Notes under the pieces: model-generated | Database searches by the model: none | Seen by the model: only the letters and a program-made list of their open reading frames with translations | Told to the model about the DNA's origin: nothing | Shown: positions 12,145 through 23,722 of the stretch, piece by piece | Position numbering within the stretch: position 1 is the first letter of the stretch | Layout: every line of letters starts with the position of its first letter | Made by a program: the position numbers and the translations under genes | NCBI GenBank assembly: GCA_001820725.1 | Contig: MHQR01000009.1 | Span: 1 to 32,543 of the forward strand | Source: Candidatus Sungbacteria bacterium RIFCSPLOWO2_01_FULL_54_21 | GTDB lineage: Bacteria > Patescibacteriota > Minisyncoccia > Sungbacterales > HO2-52-23 | Reading direction: 5' to 3' | DNA: 32,543 nt

Positions 12145-13131
12145 CTATGCGTGAGAGCGCGAAAACGCTTCCCGCGTGTCCCAATTGGAAATCCATTCAC
12201 CGTTGACACGGCTTGCGAATCTGCCGCGATAGTAATCGCGATTGAGCATCTCCGTATGCGTCATCTCCCGCCGCGCGGAGCCATACATCATCCGCCACTC
12301 GGGGATCTCTTTTTCGATCGCCGCCATCTGCGCGTCACGGGGCATCGTGGCAAATACGCAGAGTTCTTTCAAAAGTTTCGGCGTGATGGATATGGGCCCG
12401 TCTTTTGTGGCATCCGCCGGCAGAATGGTAAAATGCCGCTCTACATAATCGGCGCCCAGCGCCAGCGCGGCCTTTGCCGCCGCGATGCCGTCCCGCGCAA
12501 CGAGCGTATGATCGGACCAGCCGACTTCCGGCGCAAGCGTACGAAGCCATGCCATGCGGGCGAGATTGGCCATCTCAAGCGTATTGGGATAGCTTGTCAC
12601 GCAGTGGAGCAGAGCAAAGCGTTTGCGGCGCTCCTGTAAGAACGCCGCCGTCTTTTCTATTTCGGGATCAAATGTCGCTCCGGTGGAGACGATCAGCGTA
12701 TCAAAGGAATCGGCAAGCTCGTCAATCATGGGAACGCTGGCGCAGTCATAGCTCGCCACCTTTACCATCCGCTCCGCGGGCCACGGCAATGACGCGGCGA
12801 GCGGGATGCGCCGCCGCGCGAATACCGTCATCATGGGTGTAGCACCTGTGCGCGTTACCTCTTCAACAAAAAATCGGTAATCGTCTTCCGTAAGATCCAA
12901 TACCGCGAGACGCGCCGCCTCGTCCGTGTATGGCCGCTTGATGGCCTTGCGCACGCCGTTGTCTTCTTCCGCGCCCTCGTCAAAACGCGAGCGATGCGTC
13001 AGGTCTTCGGAAAATATCATCTGCCCTTTGATGATGTCGGCGCCGTTCTCGCGAGCCGCATGAATCATATCCCGAAGCACGCTCCGGTCTCCGTTATGGT
13101 TTTGGCATACTTCAACGATGATTTTCGCCAT
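12145..13131 (-). CDS. neuB: NeuB-family nonulosonic acid synthase lacking the SAF domain
   Basis: A 328-residue protein with the NeuB TIM barrel: IIVEVCQNHNGDRSVLRDMI, then GADIIKGQMIF, LIVSTGATFD, FALLHCVTSYPNTLEMANL, VGWSDHTL and GADYVERHFTI. The His residues of SDHT and ERHFT are the metal ligands in Neisseria NeuB and are kept. The family condenses phosphoenolpyruvate with ManNAc or a related hexose to give a nine-carbon sugar acid. Two deviations: the usual PxxDH..S motif after the barrel reads TKDGPISITPKLLKEL, and the protein ends about 65 residues after it with NRDYYRGRFAS and a short tail, so the C-terminal SAF (antifreeze-like) domain is absent. The cytidylyltransferase partner is four genes upstream at 16032. 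The symbol marks the family; the product sugar is unknown. Confidence 0.85.
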   Translation of the reverse strand: MAKIIVEVCQNHNGDRSVLRDMIHAARENGADIIKGQMIFSEDLTHRSRFDEGAEEDNGVRKAIKRPYTDEAARLAVLDLTEDDYRFFVEEVTRTGATPMMTVFARRRIPLAASLPWPAERMVKVASYDCASVPMIDELADSFDTLIVSTGATFDPEIEKTAAFLQERRKRFALLHCVTSYPNTLEMANLARMAWLRTLAPEVGWSDHTLVARDGIAAAKAALALGADYVERHFTILPADATKDGPISITPKLLKELCVFATMPRDAQMAAIEKEIPEWRMMYGSARREMTHTEMLNRDYYRGRFASRVNGEWISNWDTREAFSRSHA

Positions 13132-13173: not shown

Positions 13174-14322
13174 CTATGCGGTCATGAGGTCGGTGATGCG
13201 GCGCGCGGCATAGCTGTTGCCGTCCAGCGTGCCGAAGCGCGCGGCGAGCGCGGCGTTGAGCGCCGCGACGCGAGGGCGCAGACGCTCCGCATGGGCAAGA
13301 ATATCCGCGAGCGGCTGTCCGCGGTAGAGCACGCCCAATCCGAGTTTCTCCACACAGATATTGTTGAAATAAATTTCCGGATCATCGTGCGGATCATACG
13401 AGGGCGCCACAAGAGGGGTCATGGTCAGCTGGGACAGCCACACCGACCCCCAGCCGCTGCGCGCAAAGTGCAATCGGATGCGGGGGTTGGCGACTGCGCG
13501 GGGAGACAGCCATTCGCTACCCGGCACCGCGTCCGGATCATTGGCGTAGAGGCGCAAACCGAGCGCCTTGGCCTCTCGGTAGAGGCGTTCCAGTCCGGGA
13601 ATGCCGGTTACGGTAACATAAATGCCCTCGGGAATGTCTTCGTCGTGGGGCGCCGTCACATCAATGGTTGGCGGTATGGCCGTATCGCCGTCCGGATGCC
13701 TGCCTTCATCTTCTTGGTATGAAAACGTGCCGGGATGCGCGCGGCCGCGAAATACATAAGATTGCTCGACACCGCGCGCAAGCACTGCCGCGCGCCGAGC
13801 CAATTCCCTATCCAATGCGATCGCTTCTTGCGGAATCGTCCGAACTTTGTCCATGATCTCGGAAACGTATCCGAATGCTACCGCGTACACCGGCGCCACG
13901 CCGTAAGCAAGACGTCCTGCGCGACTAATTTCAATGACGATATCCGATCCCCTCACCGTCCGGGTATTTCCCCGCACATCCTCCACAGCGATCTCTCCCG
14001 ATAGATGCCGCCGAACTTCCCCGCTCAACGCGTCGTGGCGCTCCACCCACAGCCGCAATGCCTGCTCATAGGTATGCTCCCCGTAAAAAATGGTCCCCAG
14101 CATGCCACCGAGGCGCTTGTCCAACAGTACATTTTCCAAAGGAGCGTCCGCGAATGCTTCCCGCATGATGCGCCGCTGTTTCTCTCCATATACCCAAGGG
14201 ACGATGACGCCCAGTTCCGGCAGTCCCCTGACAGCACGTTCGCGATTGATCGCAAGCGCGAGTTCCGTCGTGCGCAGATACGGCCCGGTGCCGTACGCAA
14301 AGTTGGCGACAGCGTACTGCAT
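13174..14322 (-). CDS. GT-B-fold glycosyltransferase-like protein (MGT/GT28-like)
   Basis: A 382-residue soluble protein. The N-terminus, AVANFAYGTGPYLRTTELALAI, looks like the acceptor-side start of GT-B enzymes (MurG or UGT type). The C-terminal half has IYVTVTGIPGLERLY, then HFARSGWGSVWLSQLTMTPLVAPSYDP followed by IYFNNICVEKLGLG. This reproduces the (H/A)xGWGSxxxxLxxxxP..P..D..xNA..vExLGLG layout that binds the nucleotide sugar. The last residues FGTLDGNSYAARRI share a DG-x-(S/A) signature with the three paralogues at 19518-23722. I infer a glycosyltransferase; the acceptor and donor are unknown. It lies six bases after the next methyltransferase gene and 42 bases before neuB. The family call is motif-based and moderate in certainty. 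Confidence 0.65.
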   Translation of the reverse strand: MQYAVANFAYGTGPYLRTTELALAINRERAVRGLPELGVIVPWVYGEKQRRIMREAFADAPLENVLLDKRLGGMLGTIFYGEHTYEQALRLWVERHDALSGEVRRHLSGEIAVEDVRGNTRTVRGSDIVIEISRAGRLAYGVAPVYAVAFGYVSEIMDKVRTIPQEAIALDRELARRAAVLARGVEQSYVFRGRAHPGTFSYQEDEGRHPDGDTAIPPTIDVTAPHDEDIPEGIYVTVTGIPGLERLYREAKALGLRLYANDPDAVPGSEWLSPRAVANPRIRLHFARSGWGSVWLSQLTMTPLVAPSYDPHDDPEIYFNNICVEKLGLGVLYRGQPLADILAHAERLRPRVAALNAALAARFGTLDGNSYAARRITDLMTA

Positions 14323-14328
14323 CGCATC

Positions 14329-15249
14329 TCACACAGACAACGGCTTTCGCGCGACCACCAACACATGCTGGCCCCACTTCTCGCTGCACATCCATGGATG
14401 CCGCCGCGGCCACAGAAGCCGGCGCAGGACGAGCACGCCGCTCCAAAGAAACACCAGCGCCCGCTCAATGGGCCGCGGCATGAGCGTGAAGGGAAACGCC
14501 GGAGAATATGAAAACGAAGGCACCGGAAAGATGCCTCCCTGATATTCAATACGGGCGCCAAGCGCCGTGAGCGCGGCGACATACGGCGACGACCCGTGAC
14601 TGCTGCGATAGAGCGATTTCTTTTCTTCCTTTCCGACACTGCGAACCATACCGATGCGTGCCAACACCCGATGGACTGCGGCGAGCCCCCGGTTTACGAA
14701 AGAGAAAAGCGTCTGCACGGAACGCTTTTCCGGCACGATAGTGGCGATGATGACGCCGCCGGGCTTGAGTACGCGCCATTGCTCGACGAGCGGCGCCCGA
14801 TAATCCTCAAAGTGCTCCAACAGACCGCAATGGACAACCGTATCAAAAAAGCCGTCCGGAAACGGCATGGCAAGGCAATCGGCGCAAACGAAACGCGCCG
14901 ACAAGCCGTTCTCGCGGAAAATGTCCTCGGCGACTCGTAGAATCTCGGCTGACGTATCCAAAAGGTACGCGTCAAAACCCGCGGCGGCAAAATAGCACGA
15001 AATGGACCCCCTGCCCGATCCGGGTTCCAGCGAGCGCGGGCCCAGCGCTTGCGCCGCGCCGAGAAACCGGCGGTATACCTCCCACTGATTCTTAAACGAC
15101 ATCATGATCTGGTTTGTCGGCGCGCCAACGGCATAATAATTCTGCCGCGCCTCGTGCGCGCGGATTTTCCAGCTGTCATCAAATGCGCCAATGGATCCCG
15201 TAACTCCTGTTTTGTCTTGGTGCATACAAAAAAATGCGTATGTCCGCAT
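14329..15249 (-). CDS. Class I SAM-dependent methyltransferase
   Basis: A 306-residue protein with a Methyltransf_11/25 core at about residues 72-170: RSLEPGSGRGSISCYFAAAG (motif I with Glu and the GxGxG-like turn), AYLLDTSAEIL, ARFVCADCLAMPFPDGFFD and VVHCGLLEHFEDY, then WRVLKPGGVII. A C-terminal hydrophobic segment (about 268-285) may hold it at the membrane. The ATG at 15249 overlaps the TGA of the preceding gene as TGATG, which supports this start over the internal ATG at 15225. Probably methylates a sugar of the glycan or a lipid-linked intermediate; the target is not visible from the sequence. Confidence 0.85.
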   Translation of the reverse strand: MRTYAFFCMHQDKTGVTGSIGAFDDSWKIRAHEARQNYYAVGAPTNQIMMSFKNQWEVYRRFLGAAQALGPRSLEPGSGRGSISCYFAAAGFDAYLLDTSAEILRVAEDIFRENGLSARFVCADCLAMPFPDGFFDTVVHCGLLEHFEDYRAPLVEQWRVLKPGGVIIATIVPEKRSVQTLFSFVNRGLAAVHRVLARIGMVRSVGKEEKKSLYRSSHGSSPYVAALTALGARIEYQGGIFPVPSFSYSPAFPFTLMPRPIERALVFLWSGVLVLRRLLWPRRHPWMCSEKWGQHVLVVARKPLSV

Positions 15250-16019
15250 CAGTAGACGCCCGTGATCAGTTTCTTTAGCGGAGGCCGGCGGAAAGCCCGC
15301 GCCTCCATGGCGCGTGAGACGATTGTCTTTGCGTCCGCAAGGTCGCGGCGCGTGACGGGCGCCACGATGCCTATGCGCCGCAGAAAGTCATAACGCACCT
15401 TCCCCGGGAAGAGCAACGAATAGATAAAACAGGTGCTCATGCGCGTATCAATAAAAGCGCTGACCGGCCGTTCGCTGTCCTGCACGATCTTCAGGAAATC
15501 AAAATCAAAGGTGAGAGGCGTGCGCCCTGGATTGATCATAAAGTCGGGACCGTCCACAAACACCAGGTCGTATGCTCCTTTGGGCACATCCTTATAGCGC
15601 ACGCCGCGGAAAAATTCATACGTATCCTCCACCGCTTCGCTCAACACCATCTCCAGGCGGGAGTCGCTTTTGAGATGCGCCGGAAGGCACGCGAGCGCCG
15701 CTTCGTAATACGACGGGTTCTCTTCCATGGAGACCAAGCGCCACGGAGTACCATGTTCTTTCTCGTTTTCCATGAGTGCCCTCGCCAGCACGACGGTAGA
15801 GACGCCGGTGCCGCACTCGAGTATCTCGCGCGGCTTGTGCCTGCGTATCCATGTGTAGTGCGCCAGATAATCCGCGTATGTGCACCCCGTAGAGGGCGAG
15901 TGTGTGCGGTAGTCGGCGATGTCGCGGTATAGCACGGGGAATCGCTCGACAATCACGCGCTCCGCGCGCCGCTCAATCGCGTTTGAAAAATATTGTGCCA
16001 GTCGGTAGCGAAATTTCAT
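15249..16019 (-). CDS. SAM-dependent methyltransferase (Methyltransf_24-like)
   Basis: A 256-residue protein. The core includes REILECGTGVSTVVLARALM (SAM motif I with Glu-x-Gly-x-Gly), WRLVSMEENPSYYEAAL (acidic residue after strand 2), RLEMVLSEAVEDTYEFF and YDLVFVDGPDF, the last typical of Methyltransf_24 and FkbM-like O-methyltransferases with a D-G-P/x loop. The first 50 residues are basic and amphipathic. It overlaps the next methyltransferase (TGATG at 15247-15251) and follows the cytidylyltransferase gene by twelve bases. Two different methyltransferases read as a coupled pair suggest that two positions of one sugar are methylated; this is inference. Confidence 0.8.
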   Translation of the reverse strand: MKFRYRLAQYFSNAIERRAERVIVERFPVLYRDIADYRTHSPSTGCTYADYLAHYTWIRRHKPREILECGTGVSTVVLARALMENEKEHGTPWRLVSMEENPSYYEAALACLPAHLKSDSRLEMVLSEAVEDTYEFFRGVRYKDVPKGAYDLVFVDGPDFMINPGRTPLTFDFDFLKIVQDSERPVSAFIDTRMSTCFIYSLLFPGKVRYDFLRRIGIVAPVTRRDLADAKTIVSRAMEARAFRRPPLKKLITGVY

Positions 16020-16031
16020 ACGCGCATCATA

Positions 16032-16751
16032 TCAGATACGCCGCCACGGCGCCACCCATGACCAATCCTTGTCCCGCATGAGCGCTTCAGCCAATATCCA
16101 GTCGCGCGGTGTATCAATATTCACCCATGTTGCCTCGGGCATGACGTACGGCCGGCACACACCGGCCTTGAAGCTCTGACGTGTGCGAAACACTTCCGTC
16201 CGCGCGGCATAGATAGAGCCGTTGCGGATATATATCTTTTGCGCGTCCTGGCGCCTGCCCATTTCCGGCAGAGTCGGGTCGCAATCCACGAGCCGGTCGT
16301 CTTTGATCAGCTTCATCCATTCGGGATTGATGCCCGTGCTTTCAACGACGCTCACCACCGCGTCCGCATCCGTTTCCATCAGTTTCCTGACGGCGCCGTC
16401 GATGTCCGCCGCAGTACGCAAAGGCGTCGTGGGCTGGAGAAGCACGACGGCATCATATCGCCGGCCGGTCCGATCTTCCATCGCCGCCAGCGCATGCGCT
16501 ACCACCGGCGGCGTTGGCGCGTCGTCCCCCGCCAAAGCCTCGGGGCGCTCAAGCGTTGCGGCGCCGTAAGCGGCCGCGGCCTCGAGGATCTCCGGATCGT
16601 CAGAGGTTACCACGACATCCGCGAGCGCGGCGCTCTCCAGCGCCGGCACGATGGAATAGGCAATCAGCGGCCGCCCGAGCAGGAGCTTGATGTTTTTACG
16701 GGGAATCCCTTTGGAGCCGCCGCGCGCCGGAATAACGCCGAGGACATGCAT
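16032..16751 (-). CDS. neuA: CMP-sugar (CMP-nonulosonate) cytidylyltransferase, NeuA-like
   Basis: A 239-residue single-domain cytidylyltransferase. It has the signature VIPARGGSKGIPRKNIKLLLGRP-like start (IPARGGSKGIPRKN at about 7-20), DVVVTSDDPEIL, VVLLQPTTPLRTAADID and QKIYIRNGSIYAAR, where the last binds the sugar acid and metal. The family activates sialic, legionaminic, pseudaminic acid or KDN with CTP. With the NeuB-family gene at 12145 it makes a two-step route to a CMP-linked sugar acid. The ATG at 16751 is chosen over a TTG two codons upstream. It lies between the fused sugar dehydrogenase (twelve bases upstream) and the methyltransferase pair. The substrate cannot be told from the sequence. 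Confidence 0.9.
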   Translation of the reverse strand: MHVLGVIPARGGSKGIPRKNIKLLLGRPLIAYSIVPALESAALADVVVTSDDPEILEAAAAYGAATLERPEALAGDDAPTPPVVAHALAAMEDRTGRRYDAVVLLQPTTPLRTAADIDGAVRKLMETDADAVVSVVESTGINPEWMKLIKDDRLVDCDPTLPEMGRRQDAQKIYIRNGSIYAARTEVFRTRQSFKAGVCRPYVMPEATWVNIDTPRDWILAEALMRDKDWSWVAPWRRI

Positions 16752-16763
16752 ACACAAAAATCA

Positions 16764-18467
16764 TTACAAGGTGGCATACGTAATGCCTTCGGGCAGGGTG
16801 CCGCGGTCACGACCATACAGATACCAGGCATCAAAGAATAGACCAGGGCGCGCCATGCCGCACGCCAGATCTTTGAGCGCATGCGCCCGAAACGATCGGT
16901 GGTTGTTGAGGATGAGCGCTACGTGCGCTCCCTTGAATCCCTCTTCAAAAGAAACAGGCATGGCGCCCGGAATTTCGATTTCCTCTCCTTTAACCACCGG
17001 GTCATACACGCGCACTGCGTACTGCGGCGCGAGACGTTCGATGATTTCCAGCGCGGATGAGCCGCGCAGATCGGACGTTTCCGGCTCTCCCTTGAACGCG
17101 AGACCTGCCACAAAGATCTCCGGCCGCTCTCCGCGCCCCGCAACGCCGGCGAGAAATTGCTCTACGCGACCGCACAGGTGATCTATGGTGTTTCGGTGGA
17201 TGGCGCGGGACTTGAGCGACAGTTCCATCGGCACCCGTTTTTTTGCGGCGGTTATATGCAGGAGATACGGATCCTTGGTGAGGCACGGCCCTCCCACGCC
17301 GGGACTCGGCAAGGGAATGGGATCGCGCACATAGCCGTGATTTGCCGCCCGGATGACTTCATGCGCGGACAGACCGTACGCATGACAGAGCATCGCTATT
17401 TCGTTTGCGTATGAAAAGACGAGATCCCGGTACGTGTTGTTGAGCAACTTCACCATCTCCGCGGCTTCCAGCGATGCCACCGGCACGATGACCGGCGCGA
17501 TGAGATGGAATAGCTTGCCCGCGAGCTCCCGCGACGCTTCATCGTATCCCCCGACGACCTGCGGAAGCGTGCGCAACTCCTCCATGGCCTTTCCCTCCAC
17601 GGTGCGTTCTGGAGCGAATGCCACGAAAAAGTCCTTGCCAGCAGTAAGACCGGACCCCGCTTCCAGCGCCGGGATGCCGATCTCCCGCGTGGTGCCCGCT
17701 GGTACCGTGGAGCGCAACACCACGAGATCGTGACGCTTGAGCACCCGCGCTACGGCGGCGAGCGATGACGCGAGTGGCGCGGTAACAAGCGTGTCGCCGG
17801 ATACGGGCGTCCCCACGCACACGACATAGACATCGCTCTCGGATCCCGCAAAAGCGCGTTGCACGGTAAAATTTTTATTGAGATGTTTGAGCAGCATCTC
17901 CTGCAAGCCGCGCTCATAAAAGTGCGCCCTGCCGCTATGCAACTCTCCCACGACACGCTCATCCACATCCACACCGACTACGCGCAGACCCATTTCGGCA
18001 AACGTAAGCGCAAGCGTGAGTCCCACATAACCAAGCCCCACGATGCCGACGGTTCTTGTCTTTACGTCGGTGCGGCGCCACAACTCAAAAAATGTCACGA
18101 CATCATGAACCGTGCCGTCTTCGTTTACGATCACGATCTTGGTAAACGCGGTCCCGGGCAATGATCGGCGCTTGGTCTCCTGCAGAAGTGCTACCAACAT
18201 CTCATCGGCGGACAGAACAGAGGAGAGCGTAAACGGCTTGCGATTCATGGCGCCCGCCACCGGAGATTCCAAGTCGCCGCCGGCAATGAGAAACCGGCGA
18301 ATATCGCCGTCGGTTACGATGCCCTGCAGTACCCGTGCGTCATCAACAATCAGGGCAATGCCGTCTGCGGCGGGCGGATCCGCGTGCACCGCCCGATTGA
18401 TGACGCTCAATACCTCACGCATCGGCGTGTCAGAAGAGATGAGAATGGATTGTATGCGCTTTTCCAT
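16764..18467 (-). CDS. Fusion of a CBS-domain pair with a UDP-N-acetylmannosamine-type dehydrogenase
   Basis: A 567-residue protein. Residues 1-133 are a tandem CBS pair: SDTPMREVLSVINRA, ALIVDDARVLQGIVTDGDIRRF, then VAGAMNRKPFTL and KIVIVNEDGTVHDVVTFF. Residue 138 onward is a full nucleotide-sugar dehydrogenase: VGIVGLGYVGLTLALTFAE, VYVVCVGTPVSG, LVVLRSTVPAGTTRE, APERTVEGKAMEELRTLPQ, EMVKLLNNTYRDLVFSYANE with the catalytic Lys, GVGGPCLTKDPYLL with the catalytic Cys, and GLAFKGEPETSDLRGSSALE. It oxidises a UDP-hexose (probably UDP-ManNAc or UDP-Glc type) to the uronic acid. CBS pairs bind adenosyl nucleotides and usually control an enzyme. Such a pair is known in front of nucleotidyltransferases (PtmE type) in nonulosonate clusters, not, to my knowledge, a dehydrogenase. 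The start is the ATG at 18467; further upstream the frame overlaps the next gene. Confidence 0.9.
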   Translation of the reverse strand: MEKRIQSILISSDTPMREVLSVINRAVHADPPAADGIALIVDDARVLQGIVTDGDIRRFLIAGGDLESPVAGAMNRKPFTLSSVLSADEMLVALLQETKRRSLPGTAFTKIVIVNEDGTVHDVVTFFELWRRTDVKTRTVGIVGLGYVGLTLALTFAEMGLRVVGVDVDERVVGELHSGRAHFYERGLQEMLLKHLNKNFTVQRAFAGSESDVYVVCVGTPVSGDTLVTAPLASSLAAVARVLKRHDLVVLRSTVPAGTTREIGIPALEAGSGLTAGKDFFVAFAPERTVEGKAMEELRTLPQVVGGYDEASRELAGKLFHLIAPVIVPVASLEAAEMVKLLNNTYRDLVFSYANEIAMLCHAYGLSAHEVIRAANHGYVRDPIPLPSPGVGGPCLTKDPYLLHITAAKKRVPMELSLKSRAIHRNTIDHLCGRVEQFLAGVAGRGERPEIFVAGLAFKGEPETSDLRGSSALEIIERLAPQYAVRVYDPVVKGEEIEIPGAMPVSFEEGFKGAHVALILNNHRSFRAHALKDLACGMARPGLFFDAWYLYGRDRGTLPEGITYATL

Positions 18468-18537: not shown

Positions 18538-19521
18538 CTAGGGGGTGTCGCGCGCTTTTTTTTCCAGACGTTTCGCGACGACAACGATCCTGCGGGCGAT
18601 GTACTCGCTCGTTTTCCAGACCGATTCCACGGCCATGCCCGCGATGTGCGGCGTGATGAGGAGGTTATCGCGCTGTTCTGCGTATGCGATGAGGGGGTGC
18701 GCGAGGCGTCCCGCATAAAGATCTTTTTCGTGTTGCAGAACATCAAGCGCGGCGCCCGCTATGCCGCCCGTTTCCAGAACATGAAGCAGGGCCGCCTCAT
18801 CCACCAGCTCTCCGCGCGCGGTATTGATGAGCACGGCCTCTTTTTTCATAAGCGCGAACTCCGACGCGCCGATCATCCCTGCCGTCTCTTCGGTCAGAAG
18901 CGGATGGAGCGATACGATGTCGCTGTGGCGGAGCAATCCCTCAAGCGATACGGCTTCGATGCCCGCGGACGCGAGCTCGCCGGCATCCCGATGCGGATCG
19001 TACCCCAACACCCGCATGCCGAAAGCGGCCGAGAAGCCGGCAACCATTGCCCCCACGCGCCCGCAACCGACGAGGCCGATCACCCGTCCCTTGAGCTCGT
19101 GGCCTTGGAATGCGAAACTTTCCCATGTGCGGCGCCGAACCGCGTCAAAACTCCACGGGATTCTGCGCAAGAGCGCGAGTATGAGTCCCATCGCGTGCTC
19201 TGCGGTGCTGGGAATCTCTTGCAGGAGCGTCGTCTCCCCGCGTAGGGTAATCACCGCAATCCCATGTTCCTCTAAAGCGCCCATATCAAGATGGTTGATG
19301 CCTGTCGTCGCGGATCCTACGATCACAAGGCGGGGCGCCGCATTGATCAGTGCCCGGTCTACGACCGTATCCATCCGCACGATCAGGATGTCTGCGTCCG
19401 CGACAAGGCGAAGAAATGCCTCGCGGGTTTCGGGCTTGCGCCTCACCACATTACCCAGCGTCTCAAGCATGGCAAGCGCCCCGGAGGGATAGTTTTCAAA
19501 ATCGGTGTGGAGGATTTTCAT
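18538..19521 (-). CDS. D-isomer-specific 2-hydroxyacid dehydrogenase
   Basis: A 327-residue protein. It has the substrate-side VGSATTGINHLDM (about 69-80), the NAD site VIGLVGCGRVGAMVAGF (about 147-163), VSLHPLLTEETAGMIG, LINTARGELVDEAALLHVLETG with the catalytic Arg, and ITPHIAGMAVES with the catalytic His. NAEHAMGLILALLRRIP-like helix residues (TAEHAMGLILALLRR) are typical. Relatives include phosphoglycerate and erythronate-4-phosphate dehydrogenase. In a nonulosonate locus it may make an acid precursor or a 2-keto compound for a rare sugar; serine synthesis is the housekeeping alternative. The ATG at 19521 shares ATGA with the stop of the preceding glycosyltransferase. After its stop, 70 bases without a gene contain a weak CCGG-loop-CCGG hairpin. 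Confidence 0.85.
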   Translation of the reverse strand: MKILHTDFENYPSGALAMLETLGNVVRRKPETREAFLRLVADADILIVRMDTVVDRALINAAPRLVIVGSATTGINHLDMGALEEHGIAVITLRGETTLLQEIPSTAEHAMGLILALLRRIPWSFDAVRRRTWESFAFQGHELKGRVIGLVGCGRVGAMVAGFSAAFGMRVLGYDPHRDAGELASAGIEAVSLEGLLRHSDIVSLHPLLTEETAGMIGASEFALMKKEAVLINTARGELVDEAALLHVLETGGIAGAALDVLQHEKDLYAGRLAHPLIAYAEQRDNLLITPHIAGMAVESVWKTSEYIARRIVVVAKRLEKKARDTP

Positions 19522-20861
19522 ATCGTTTCTCCGACAGCGCCCACGATGAGAGCCGCAAGGCGCCGCCCGGACATGCCGTCCACAAAGCCGCACTGTTCGC
19601 GCACGATCCGCGCCCTGCCCTCGCGGTCCAACCCTGGATCGCGGAAATACTGCTCTACGAGCATGACAAGTTCCTGCTCGCTTTTTGCCACCCGCACGCC
19701 CTTGCTCTGCAGAATCGGCTGGATATGGTCAAAGCCGTACTCCACGATGCCTTCATAAAATGTCTTCTTCCCGGGAAAGAAATTGATCAGCACATTGGGC
19801 TTGTCGAGAAACGCGGCATCTATGTTAATAGTGCCTGGTCCGGAGACCATCAGGTCGCACCACGCCAGATCATTGAGAAGCCGCTCGTCATCTTCAGGCG
19901 TCAGCTCGCTGTCGCCGCGGTTCTTGAAGAGCAGACCGGAATCCTGGAATCTGACGTTCGGTGGAAATGCGCTGCGGTCCATAGTCACTACGGCGGCAGG
20001 CGGAAGCCGCACCAGAATCGTCGCGTCCAGCCGCGAAAGAATGCGCAACACGTGCGTGTCCACGTCGTTTTCTGGCAGACGGAAATCCGTAACCGGCCCG
20101 TAGAGAATCAGGCGCTTGGCCGGGTCCGCGCCGATCTGCGCAAAAAATGCCTCGCGCGACATCATCGGCCCCCGGGCATAGCGATCATAGTGCGGAATAC
20201 CGATGACATGCACTGCCTCTGCCGGTACGAGATGGCGGGTGACGAGTATGGATTTTAGCATCGTGTTCCAAACCGCCACGCGATCGGGCACACAGCGCAT
20301 GAGAAAGTTGGTGGGTCCGTCCCACGAACGTACAAGGCCGAGCGTCGGTATGCCGCATCGCTTCGCGTCTTGGAGGAGCGCGACATCGTTTTCGTCGTTC
20401 ACCTCGGTCGCCACCACAAGGGCGGGGCGGTACCGCTCAAAGAGCGGGCGGAAAAAATACTTCTTGGAAGCAAGATGAAAATCCAGAAAGCGCGCGAGGC
20501 GCGCGCCGAGGCGCGTGGCGCCGAGCAAGCGGGCGGGCAGAAGAAAGAACGCGTAATAGAAAATTCTTTTTTCAATGAAAAGCTTCTGCCGCGCCTTGAG
20601 CAAGGATGTGCGGCTCCCTGCCATGGGACGCGCGAGGCGCTTGAAAAAAAATCCCGCCGGGGCGCGCGAAAATGAGTAGGCGGCGATCCCCTCCACGACG
20701 ACGCCGGGACCTCCAAACTGCCGCACAAAATATTCCTTCTTGTAGTCGGGCACGATGAGCACCACGCGGATTCCCCGCGCGAGAACGGCGCGCAACGCGT
20801 CCGTCGCCAGGATATTGCGGCCGATGAGGATGTGGAAACTGGTGATAAAAACCGTTTTCAT
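19518..20861 (-). CDS. CDP-glycerophosphotransferase/GT-B-like transferase, tandem paralogue 3
   Basis: A 447-residue soluble protein beginning KTVFITSFHILIGRNIL. The first half has a basic, hydrophobic stretch (about 75-130) that may contact the membrane, then ALVVATEVNDENDVALLQDAKR and GIPTLGLVRSWDGPTN. The second half carries VHVIGIPHYDRY, RLILYGPVTDFRLPEND and DLMVSGPGTINIDAAFLDKPNVLI, the nucleotide-binding Rossmann part seen in CDP-glycerol glycerophosphotransferases and UDP-GlcNAc 2-epimerase-like GT-B proteins. The C-terminus ends EQCGFVDGMSGRRLAALI. The same order (xxPTLG..SWD, VIGIPxYD, C..xDG) appears in the next two genes. Likely adds a sugar or polyol-phosphate to the glycan. The start is the ATG at 20861, as the frame further upstream overlaps the neighbour. 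Confidence 0.75.
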   Translation of the reverse strand: MKTVFITSFHILIGRNILATDALRAVLARGIRVVLIVPDYKKEYFVRQFGGPGVVVEGIAAYSFSRAPAGFFFKRLARPMAGSRTSLLKARQKLFIEKRIFYYAFFLLPARLLGATRLGARLARFLDFHLASKKYFFRPLFERYRPALVVATEVNDENDVALLQDAKRCGIPTLGLVRSWDGPTNFLMRCVPDRVAVWNTMLKSILVTRHLVPAEAVHVIGIPHYDRYARGPMMSREAFFAQIGADPAKRLILYGPVTDFRLPENDVDTHVLRILSRLDATILVRLPPAAVVTMDRSAFPPNVRFQDSGLLFKNRGDSELTPEDDERLLNDLAWCDLMVSGPGTINIDAAFLDKPNVLINFFPGKKTFYEGIVEYGFDHIQPILQSKGVRVAKSEQELVMLVEQYFRDPGLDREGRARIVREQCGFVDGMSGRRLAALIVGAVGETI

Positions 20862-20883
20862 AGAGGGTGGAGAAACACACACG

Positions 20884-22308
20884 TCACCCGGCGCGCGCTC
20901 CCGCCGCAAGAATTTCCTCGAGGATGCGCGCCGATGCGTTGCCATCAAGCGTGCCGCATACATTCCTGCGCAGACGTTCGCGCGCGTCCGCGCCGATCTG
21001 CGGATTTTTTAGATATGCATCCAGCGCTGAAAACAACTGATCAAAATCATACACAATGCGCAGAGCTCCCGTATTGAGCACTTCGCGGAAATGGTCAAAA
21101 CCCATAAAACGCCTGATGGAGCGCGCGTAGGACCGTGTGGTATAGCCGTCAAATGCGGGCGCTACCAGAGGTCGGTCGAGCGCTGCCGCCTCCACGACCA
21201 TGGTGGTATACAACGCGATCACCGCATCCGCCTGCGCCAAAATGTTCATAAAGTCAATGCTCAAGGCAACATCGCCCCAAAATTCTTTTTGGTAAAATAT
21301 AACGCGCGGGTGGCTTGCAAATCGGTTGAATTTTTCCATATCGAATTGCTTGTCTTTACTCCTGCCGCCCAGATACGGACGGATGACGAGGTACACATCC
21401 TCGCCGAATTTTCCTCCGTCGGCCCATTTCAAAATCGTCTCAATGATGTCGGGTTCATCGGGGCAATACGCGCTTCCGGACACATACATAAGATACTTCG
21501 CGTGCGAAGGAAATTGCAGACGGGCAAGCACGTCTGCCCGCGGCTTGAAATTTTCTTTCCGCACGATGAAATCAAAATGGGGATACCCGACGGCCACAAT
21601 TTCCGACGGCGCGTAGGCCTGATAGTCCACTGCCATGCGCCGCACCTGGTTTCCGGCAACGAGCAGACGATCGGCGTGGAAGGGCAGGAAATATTTGTCG
21701 AGATGATCCCATCCGGCGGGCATGCCGACCGTGCGGATGCGCCGGCGCTTTGCCTCGGCCATCAGCATGGTATCAAACCACCCGAACAGGTGCGTGGCAA
21801 AAACTACATCGGGCGCTATGCGATCAAACAAGGGGGCGAACGGCCGATCTGTGAAAATCTTGAGCCACATCCACGGTATGACGAGCCGTTTGAGCAATCG
21901 GCTCCTGCCGAACGTCCGTGCGATCAGAATTTTAAGCGGCGCCAGAAACCGCCACCCGCCGGCAGGCGGCTCATCAGGCCGGGTACCGAGGGTCGCCATA
22001 ATCCGCGTGGTGCCCGTATAGATTAAATATGAATAGAAGAAATAGAATATTCTCCGCACCGTGGTTTTTGCCGATGGCACGTCCACGACTTCGATTGAAA
22101 GCCGGTCGCCATATTGCGCGCCATACTGGGAAAAGAAAAAGTCGTATTTTTGGCGCGCATGCGAAGACATAACGAGCACAACCCGCAGGGCATAATCTTG
22201 AGCGAACACCTGCGCCAGCCGGTCAAACATACTGCCGGGAAAAAAGAAAAGATTCCGGAATGACGCCGACGAAGAAATGCTTATTACTAATGTTTTCTTG
22301 TGTCCCAT
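20884..22308 (-). CDS. CDP-glycerophosphotransferase/GT-B-like transferase, tandem paralogue 2
   Basis: A 474-residue protein, the most diverged of the three. The N-terminus is TLVISISSSASFRNLFFFPGSMFDR. The mid part has DVVFATHLFGWFDTMLMAEAKRR, then RTVGMPAGWDHLDKYFLPF, which aligns with the GIPT..SWD segment of the other two. IVAVGYPHFDFIVRKENF corresponds to their VIGIPxYD motif. The nucleotide side has YLMYVSGSAYCPDEPDIIE, DVYLVIRPYLGG and ADAVIALYTTMVVEAAALDRP. It closes with CGTLDGNASARILEEIL. Function as for its paralogues: a GT-B-type transferase using a nucleotide-linked donor. Seven bases separate it from the gene upstream and 22 from the one downstream, so all three are probably co-transcribed. 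Donor and acceptor unknown. Confidence 0.75.
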   Translation of the reverse strand: MGHKKTLVISISSSASFRNLFFFPGSMFDRLAQVFAQDYALRVVLVMSSHARQKYDFFFSQYGAQYGDRLSIEVVDVPSAKTTVRRIFYFFYSYLIYTGTTRIMATLGTRPDEPPAGGWRFLAPLKILIARTFGRSRLLKRLVIPWMWLKIFTDRPFAPLFDRIAPDVVFATHLFGWFDTMLMAEAKRRRIRTVGMPAGWDHLDKYFLPFHADRLLVAGNQVRRMAVDYQAYAPSEIVAVGYPHFDFIVRKENFKPRADVLARLQFPSHAKYLMYVSGSAYCPDEPDIIETILKWADGGKFGEDVYLVIRPYLGGRSKDKQFDMEKFNRFASHPRVIFYQKEFWGDVALSIDFMNILAQADAVIALYTTMVVEAAALDRPLVAPAFDGYTTRSYARSIRRFMGFDHFREVLNTGALRIVYDFDQLFSALDAYLKNPQIGADARERLRRNVCGTLDGNASARILEEILAAGARAG

Positions 22309-22315
22309 ATCAGAA

Positions 22316-23722
22316 TTAGGTCAAACATTCTGTGTTTGACATTTGGAGCATCTGCAGAAGCAGAGCCGCGACCCGCTCTCCTGCTTTGCCGTCCGTAGTC
22401 ACGCACTGTTGGGCTACGATAGCCGCCCTGCCTTGGGTCAGATGCTCCGGATGCGTGAGGCCGTCATTGATCGCTTCTGCCAATTCCTTCTCGCTTTTGA
22501 CCAAGGTGATGCCGCCGAGCGGGCGTATGTCCGCCAGATGGTCCCATGCGAAGAATCTGCGCGCGGAATTCCAAAAATTATTTTTCTGTCCGCCGTCAAA
22601 CGCGATGCCGACGAGTGGTTTATTACACGCAGCGCCTTCAATGAAAAATGTGGAGTACATCGTGATAATGACATCCGCGTGCCACAGCGTATTGGTGAGA
22701 AGACGGATTGCGCCTTCGTCAAATTCCCAGCTGTCCTTGCCTGTGCCCGCGTGCGCCATGGAGGGCTCGGCCAAAAATCCGTATTGCTTTTTTATACGCT
22801 CCAAAACGCCCGCAGGCAAGTCGAATCGCGGATACGGGCGCACGAGCACTTCCGTATCGGCAGGGATACGTCCATCAGCGCGCATCTGCGAAAGTATTTC
22901 AATGATGTCATATTCTATGGCAAGCCCTTGCTTGCCGGAGAGCGCGTAGACAATCATTTTTTTGTTCGGGTCGCCGCCAAGAGACGAGAGAAACACATCG
23001 CGCGGCATAACACCCTGTTTGCGGAACACGCGATCATACTGCGGGATGCCGATGACGCGGATGCGCTCTGCCGGATAATCCCCCAGCGTCTCGGCCTGAT
23101 GTTTGATTGAATCCGTGTGCGCGAGCAGTACATCCGGATGCACGCGCAGAATCGTTTTTGAATACAGATTATCCCACGACAGAGCCATACCCACGGTCGG
23201 TATACCGCGTTTTTTCGCTTCTTTCAGTATGGCCATGTCCGGGGTGAGCATGGTCGGCGCATAGACCAGGGATGGGCTATAGGTATGGAATATCGCCGCA
23301 ATACTCCTATCGGCAGGGAACCATGCATATATTTTTCGCAGGAAATATCGCCACCACCGAAACTGGCCCAGACTGCGCAGGATGCTTTTTGTGATAAAGA
23401 CGACCACGCGCGCGGGAATATGTTTCGCGCTTCCCCTGCGGAATAGTTCCGCATATTGCATCATCATCGCGGTGCGCGTATGAATGCCCGCAATTTCCGC
23501 CCACCGCCAGAACCGTTCGCGGCGCGATGCGGCATACGGCGGAAGAGGTACAAACACGACGCGCTCGCCCGGGAACTCACCGCGATAATAATCTACTTTT
23601 CCGGCGGGCGCCAAAAGTACCAGCCGCATGTCAGGTACGCCTGCGAGTATTGAAAAGGTGTCCGCGCGCAGAAAACTGCGGACAATGAAATTGCTCGTGA
23701 TCGGAATGAGAATCGTCTTCAT
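22316..23722 (-). CDS. CDP-glycerophosphotransferase/GT-B-like transferase, tandem paralogue 1
   Basis: A 468-residue protein. It starts TILIPITSNFIVRSFLRADT, contains YAPTMLTPDMAILKEAKKRG, GIPTVGMALSWDNLYSKTIL and IRVIGIPQYDRVFR, then MIVYALSGKQGLAIEYDIIE, VLVRPYPRFDLP and ADVIITMYSTFFIEGAACNKPLV, and ends CVTTDGKAGERVAALLLQML. The VRPxPR segment and the S/T-T..(I/V)-E/D-A helix start are typical of TagB/TagF-like and polysialyltransferase-like GT-B enzymes. It overlaps the GT4 gene upstream by four bases (ATGA at 23719-23722). The three neighbours share architecture but low identity by eye, so they likely transfer different residues one after the other, as in building a defined oligosaccharide repeat. 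Confidence 0.75.
   Translation of the reverse strand: MKTILIPITSNFIVRSFLRADTFSILAGVPDMRLVLLAPAGKVDYYRGEFPGERVVFVPLPPYAASRRERFWRWAEIAGIHTRTAMMMQYAELFRRGSAKHIPARVVVFITKSILRSLGQFRWWRYFLRKIYAWFPADRSIAAIFHTYSPSLVYAPTMLTPDMAILKEAKKRGIPTVGMALSWDNLYSKTILRVHPDVLLAHTDSIKHQAETLGDYPAERIRVIGIPQYDRVFRKQGVMPRDVFLSSLGGDPNKKMIVYALSGKQGLAIEYDIIEILSQMRADGRIPADTEVLVRPYPRFDLPAGVLERIKKQYGFLAEPSMAHAGTGKDSWEFDEGAIRLLTNTLWHADVIITMYSTFFIEGAACNKPLVGIAFDGGQKNNFWNSARRFFAWDHLADIRPLGGITLVKSEKELAEAINDGLTHPEHLTQGRAAIVAQQCVTTDGKAGERVAALLLQMLQMSNTECLT

Follow-up and report, generated by a model that had tools for sequence, protein, structure and literature searches.

The window (the whole stretch of 32,543 nucleotides analysed, from Candidatus Sungbacteria bacterium RIFCSPLOWO2_01_FULL_54_21) encodes a confirmed fusion of a tandem CBS module with a UDP-sugar dehydrogenase, which recurs beside genes for the synthesis of CMP-ulosonates. 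As its sequence class indicates, the enzyme would use NAD+ to oxidise C6 of a UDP-N-acetylhexosamine, a sugar that we infer, to the uronic acid. Its N-terminal CBS pair would bind CMP itself or the CMP-activated ulosonic acid that the NeuB-like synthase and PseF-like synthetase encoded nearby would make. Ligand binding would then feedback-control the dehydrogenase, which would catalyse an early branch-point step in the surface-glycan pathway that yields the ligand. This reading, CBS-mediated feedback on UDP-HexNAc oxidation, has about an even chance of being correct.

The fusion is a single ORF of 567 amino acids on the minus strand (16764..18467), starting at an ATG at 18467, ending in a stop at 16764-16766 and interrupted by no internal stop. 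Homologues start at the same position; a longer reading from the in-frame TTG at 18746, which overlaps the upstream gene and is unconserved, was rejected. The tandem CBS (Bateman) module (18066..18467, minus strand; residues 1-134, repeats at 1-133) is followed after a joint of about five residues by a complete nucleotide-sugar dehydrogenase (16767..18053, minus strand; residues 139-567, domains at 139-551). An AlphaFold2 model built from a 48-sequence alignment is confident throughout (mean pLDDT 91.8, pTM 0.80). In this model the CBS region has a visible two-repeat secondary structure that stops at residue 133, and the first Rossmann strand begins at 139.

The dehydrogenase part contains the Pfam domains UDPG_MGDP_dh_N (139-314), central (334-421) and C-terminal (453-551), all far over the cut-off, and scores 331 bits against TIGR03026. 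All 48 fusions share the catalytic residues T254, E287, K340, N344, C395, K398 and D399 as well as R347 and D348, and C395, K340, N344, D399, E287 and T254 align to 4r16. The closest solved structures are the UDP-ManNAc dehydrogenase 4r16 and CalS8; these match the dehydrogenase part only, and no CBS-dehydrogenase structure occurs among the 50 fold-search matches listed, which cover that part alone. In the aligned PDB entries, the motif NT[YF]RD (NTYRD in the window) is common to the fusion and the UDP-HexNAc dehydrogenases 4r16, 3ojl and 3g79 and is absent in CalS8 (4xr9) and 3gg2. This points to a UDP-HexNAc dehydrogenase, a class assignment in which the exact sugar is a matter of inference. 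Because NT[YF]RD is shared with UDP-HexNAc enzymes and R347-D348 is invariant, the product is most likely a UDP-N-acetylhexosaminuronic acid. The WecC, Cap5O and Pyrococcus UDP-N-acetylmannosamine dehydrogenases (4r16, 3ojl; TIGR03026) share with the fusion the three domains, the catalytic Cys, Lys, Asn and Asp and NT[YF]RD. Unlike the fusion, they have no CBS pair, and the fusion stays under the equivalog cut-offs of NF008286 (WecC; 190 vs 459 bits) and NF040825 (235 vs 750 bits).

The fusion lies in an operon on the minus strand. Only 6 bp downstream is the gene of a PseF-like CMP-ulosonate synthetase (CTP_transf_3, 16032..16757), followed by two methyltransferase genes that are not generally conserved (14329..16019, comprising 15249-16019 and 14329-15249), a protein of predicted GT-B fold with no Pfam match (13174..14322) and a NeuB-family synthase of 328 aa without a SAF domain (12145..13131). 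Upstream is a D-2-hydroxyacid dehydrogenase (PGDH-like, 18538..19593), also a recurrent cassette member. Every fetched locus was searched with the window proteins, and the flanking genes were clustered. In the fetched flanks of 52 fused loci, homologues were found for NeuB in 41, the PseF-like synthetase in 36, the 2-hydroxyacid dehydrogenase in 25 and the GT-B protein in 18 (all Patescibacteria or unnamed bins), counts that are lower limits, many contigs ending within the locus. The corresponding numbers among 20 unfused relatives are 2, 2, 0 and 0; L086 is counted as unfused in both sets of figures, having first been taken as fused, so that the original totals differ by one. Three consecutive GT-like proteins of 470-480 aa, one matching Glyphos_transf (PF04464), are encoded at 19518-23722; proteins related to them turn up close to the fusion at further loci, and the three may be transferases for the cassette sugar. 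Thus the original prediction, a CBS pair in front of a complete WecC-like dehydrogenase within an operon of a nonulosonate locus, holds on each of these points: in the single ORF, Pfam matches, model and homologues for the layout, in the catalytic residues and NT[YF]RD for the enzyme class, and in the NeuB and PseF-like genes, the latter immediately downstream, for the setting.

The cassette resembles the NeuB, PseI and LegI pathways in combining a NeuB-family synthase and a CTP_transf_3 synthetase in one operon. It differs in that its NeuB belongs to a separate SAF-less subfamily and in that clustering of the cassette genes revealed no recurrent dedicated set of the NeuC, PseB-C-H or LegB kind; Epimerase_2 is encoded elsewhere in the genome in 20 of 30 genomes, the source genome among them. 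The window NeuB matches the NeuB catalytic domain with E=1.6e-40. A SAF domain is present in none of 19 subfamily members and in all four canonical NeuB proteins from the same locus set. The subfamily is found in 35 loci, at 45-70% identity to the window protein and mostly with about 315-330 aa, whereas the NeuB proteins of loci outside it are 22-39% identical. A conserved LNRDYYRGRFAS...NW tail was observed in the window NeuB and its homologues, which are sharply separate from canonical NeuB. In the class sample, 10 of 384 genomes carry the SAF-less type, and 6 of the 9 genomes with the fusion are among these (Fisher 4e-9, genomes taken as independent of phylogeny).

The CBS match of the window protein in Pfam is weak (residues 8-60, E=3e-4, under the gathering score); 47 of 48 fused homologues match PF00571 (CBS), the best with 8e-13. 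Conservation within the pair is concentrated in one site, G49-x-x-T-D-G-D-x-R-R (GIVTDGDIRR at residues 49-58 of the window protein), which apart from P78 is the sole strongly conserved part. There, G54-D55 is invariant and T52 and R57-R58 are nearly so in the 48 fusions; the second repeat is degenerate and shows no conserved site in the alignment of fusions. Through this one conserved, predicted ligand site the pair would act as an allosteric sensor. In a six-frame search of the 99.6%-complete source genome, the window CBS pair scores at the cut-off and no other CBS protein was detected, which favours sensing specific to one pathway over global sensing.

As to the ligand, the PDB search with the window CBS pair matches only arabinose-5-phosphate isomerases, namely 4o9k (E=3e-7), 3fna and 3k2v, and the motif TDGD[IL]RR is common to the fusion pair and those isomerases, which carry TDGDLRR. 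The structure 4O9K is reported to have been solved with CMP-Kdo bound; a search of open-access full text gave nothing relevant on CMP-Kdo-CBS structures. In NCBIfam, KpsF/GutQ is the most frequent family, matched by all 28 scanned fused CBS pairs, with IMPDH matched by 8 of the 28. The likeness extends to the systems themselves. In KpsF, GutQ and KdsD, too, a CBS pair with GxxTDGD[IL]RR is attached to an enzyme that acts early in a CMP-ulosonate (Kdo) pathway; that enzyme is a SIS isomerase and bears the pair at its C-terminus, whereas the fusion is a dehydrogenase with the pair at its N-terminus. A profile combining many of the fused pairs, however, matches generic archaeal CBS proteins (2p9m, 3kpc), some of which bind adenosyl ligands, better than 4o9k, so the kinship to the isomerase pairs of the Kdo pathway is suggestive and not proven. 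Because of the isomerase and KpsF/GutQ matches and the CMP-sugar synthetase next door, CMP-ulosonate would be the most economical candidate ligand.

This choice is favoured over the adenine-nucleotide (energy-charge) control proposed in the original prediction, by which binding of ATP, AMP or ADP would adjust UDP-uronate output. Characterised CBS pairs mostly bind adenosyl ligands, the GxxTxxD ribose motif is present in the fused pair, and its distant profile matches include AMPK gamma and IMPDH. Against this, the single-sequence PDB matches are isomerase pairs, the NCBIfam matches are mainly to KpsF/GutQ, and CMP-ulosonate genes accompany the fusion, leaving energy-charge control a possible but weaker candidate. 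Still less probable is a structural role, in which the CBS pair would set the oligomeric state or scaffold cassette enzymes independently of any ligand: the second site is degenerate and the module is wholly absent from some relatives, yet from phylum to phylum the first site (G49, T52, G54-D55, R57) is much better preserved than the remainder of the module, which suggests ligand binding. CBS control is dispensable, since some dehydrogenases of the fusion's clade lack the CBS pair in the tree and some SAF-less NeuB genes have GT-B and PseF-like neighbours but no fusion close by.

Full-length homologues of the fusion, 34-48% identical, are found in about 50 genomes. That it is an assembly or gene-calling artefact, a reading in favour of which only the weak CBS score of the window sequence speaks, is practically excluded because the identical join lies in intact reading frames in these independent genomes and the structure model is confident across it, in agreement with the original prediction, which held a chimera unlikely. 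In the class sample the full fusion is present in 9 of 384 genomes. A broad scan (one genome per species, its Patescibacteria partly overlapping the class sample) extends it to Nitrososphaerota, Bacteroidota, Pseudomonadota, Spirochaetota, Cyanobacteriota, Lentisphaerota, Armatimonadota and others; metagenome bins make up a large share of these genomes, and their organism names carry a risk of misbinning. Rarity of the fusion is contradicted by this spread. Open-access full text yielded no paper describing the fusion or its cassette; this variant of nucleotide-sugar dehydrogenase is widespread and, as it appears, uncharacterised. Of the two traits that together would have refuted the original prediction, being common and being characterised, apparently only the first applies. 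Taken as a whole, the earlier interpretation is partly supported.

The dehydrogenase tree contains six changes between fused and unfused labels, one of which (L062) is a contig-edge artefact. Most simply, the fusion is old, was lost a few times and spread horizontally; two or more gains are a less simple alternative. No standalone CBS gene is present in the close relatives L018 and L019, where the dehydrogenase merely lacks the module, and the plasmid and phage collections contained no fused copy (no match covering 80% of the query). The window fusion groups with Peregrinibacteriota (support 95/72) and not with same-family relatives, to which the window NeuB is closest; with nearest kin thus differing, the cassette looks mosaic. 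A second clade of eight fusions (L053, L057, L059, L063, L065, L066, L068, L075) has a shorter CBS pair and mostly lies beside an AP_endonuc_2-type TIM barrel and a DegT aminotransferase. Canonical NeuB genes, instead of the SAF-less type, are near in several of its loci, which counts against the feedback reading. The cultured Solidesulfovibrio alcoholivorans belongs to this clade.

NeuB pathways require a free aldose, and the UDP-uronate may have to be split to release one. The GT-B protein (c6, in Patescibacteria), whose gene is conserved with those for NeuB and the PseF-like synthetase even without the fusion, is modelled with pLDDT 90.5 as a UGT-like fold at low similarity and is a candidate UDP-sugar hydrolase. 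A different protein, c8, is found in Bacteroidota and others; 11 of 13 cases have Glyco_tran_28_C. Five loci of one clade (L039, L047, L048, L054, L055) have neither c6 nor c8. In all five, a HAD phosphatase is encoded directly upstream of the fusion and a Nudix-box-like protein (c17) without a Pfam hit directly downstream, its Nudix identity being at motif level and unconfirmed by Pfam or PDB profiles. Judging from gene content, a swap between GT-B and phosphatase plus Nudix-like protein would make sense as the UDP-uronate cleavage step; the GT-B proteins of the cassette may equally be glycosyltransferases.

A more speculative reading, which we consider doubtful, is that the uronic acid itself serves as NeuB substrate and that the cassette makes an undescribed dicarboxylic nonulosonate. 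The fusion would form UDP-HexNAc-uronate, from which the GT-B hydrolase, or the Nudix-like protein and the HAD phosphatase, would release free uronate. The SAF-less NeuB would join this to phosphoenolpyruvate, giving a nonulosaric acid that the PseF-like synthetase would convert to its CMP-sugar, and the CMP-sugar would inhibit the fusion by way of its CBS pair. A C8 hydroxyl beside a C9 carboxylate would be a 2-hydroxyacid, which, as a speculation, offers a possible role for the dehydrogenase at 18538-19593.

PtmE-type CBS-nucleotidyltransferases of legionaminic acid loci have an N-terminal CBS pair on a nucleotide-sugar enzyme as well, the partner being a nucleotidyltransferase rather than a dehydrogenase. 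Feedback on UDP-sugar dehydrogenases is best known through inhibitors bound by the enzyme, such as UDP-xylose on UGDH. The fused Bateman module, if the proposed role is true, would constitute a separate control route for the acidic-sugar branch point, one whose carriers range from Patescibacteria to archaea that oxidise ammonia. The genes found beside the fusion also point to a conserved cassette of nonulosonate-like type, containing a divergent NeuB, as a candidate source of a new acidic surface sugar in uncultured microbes.
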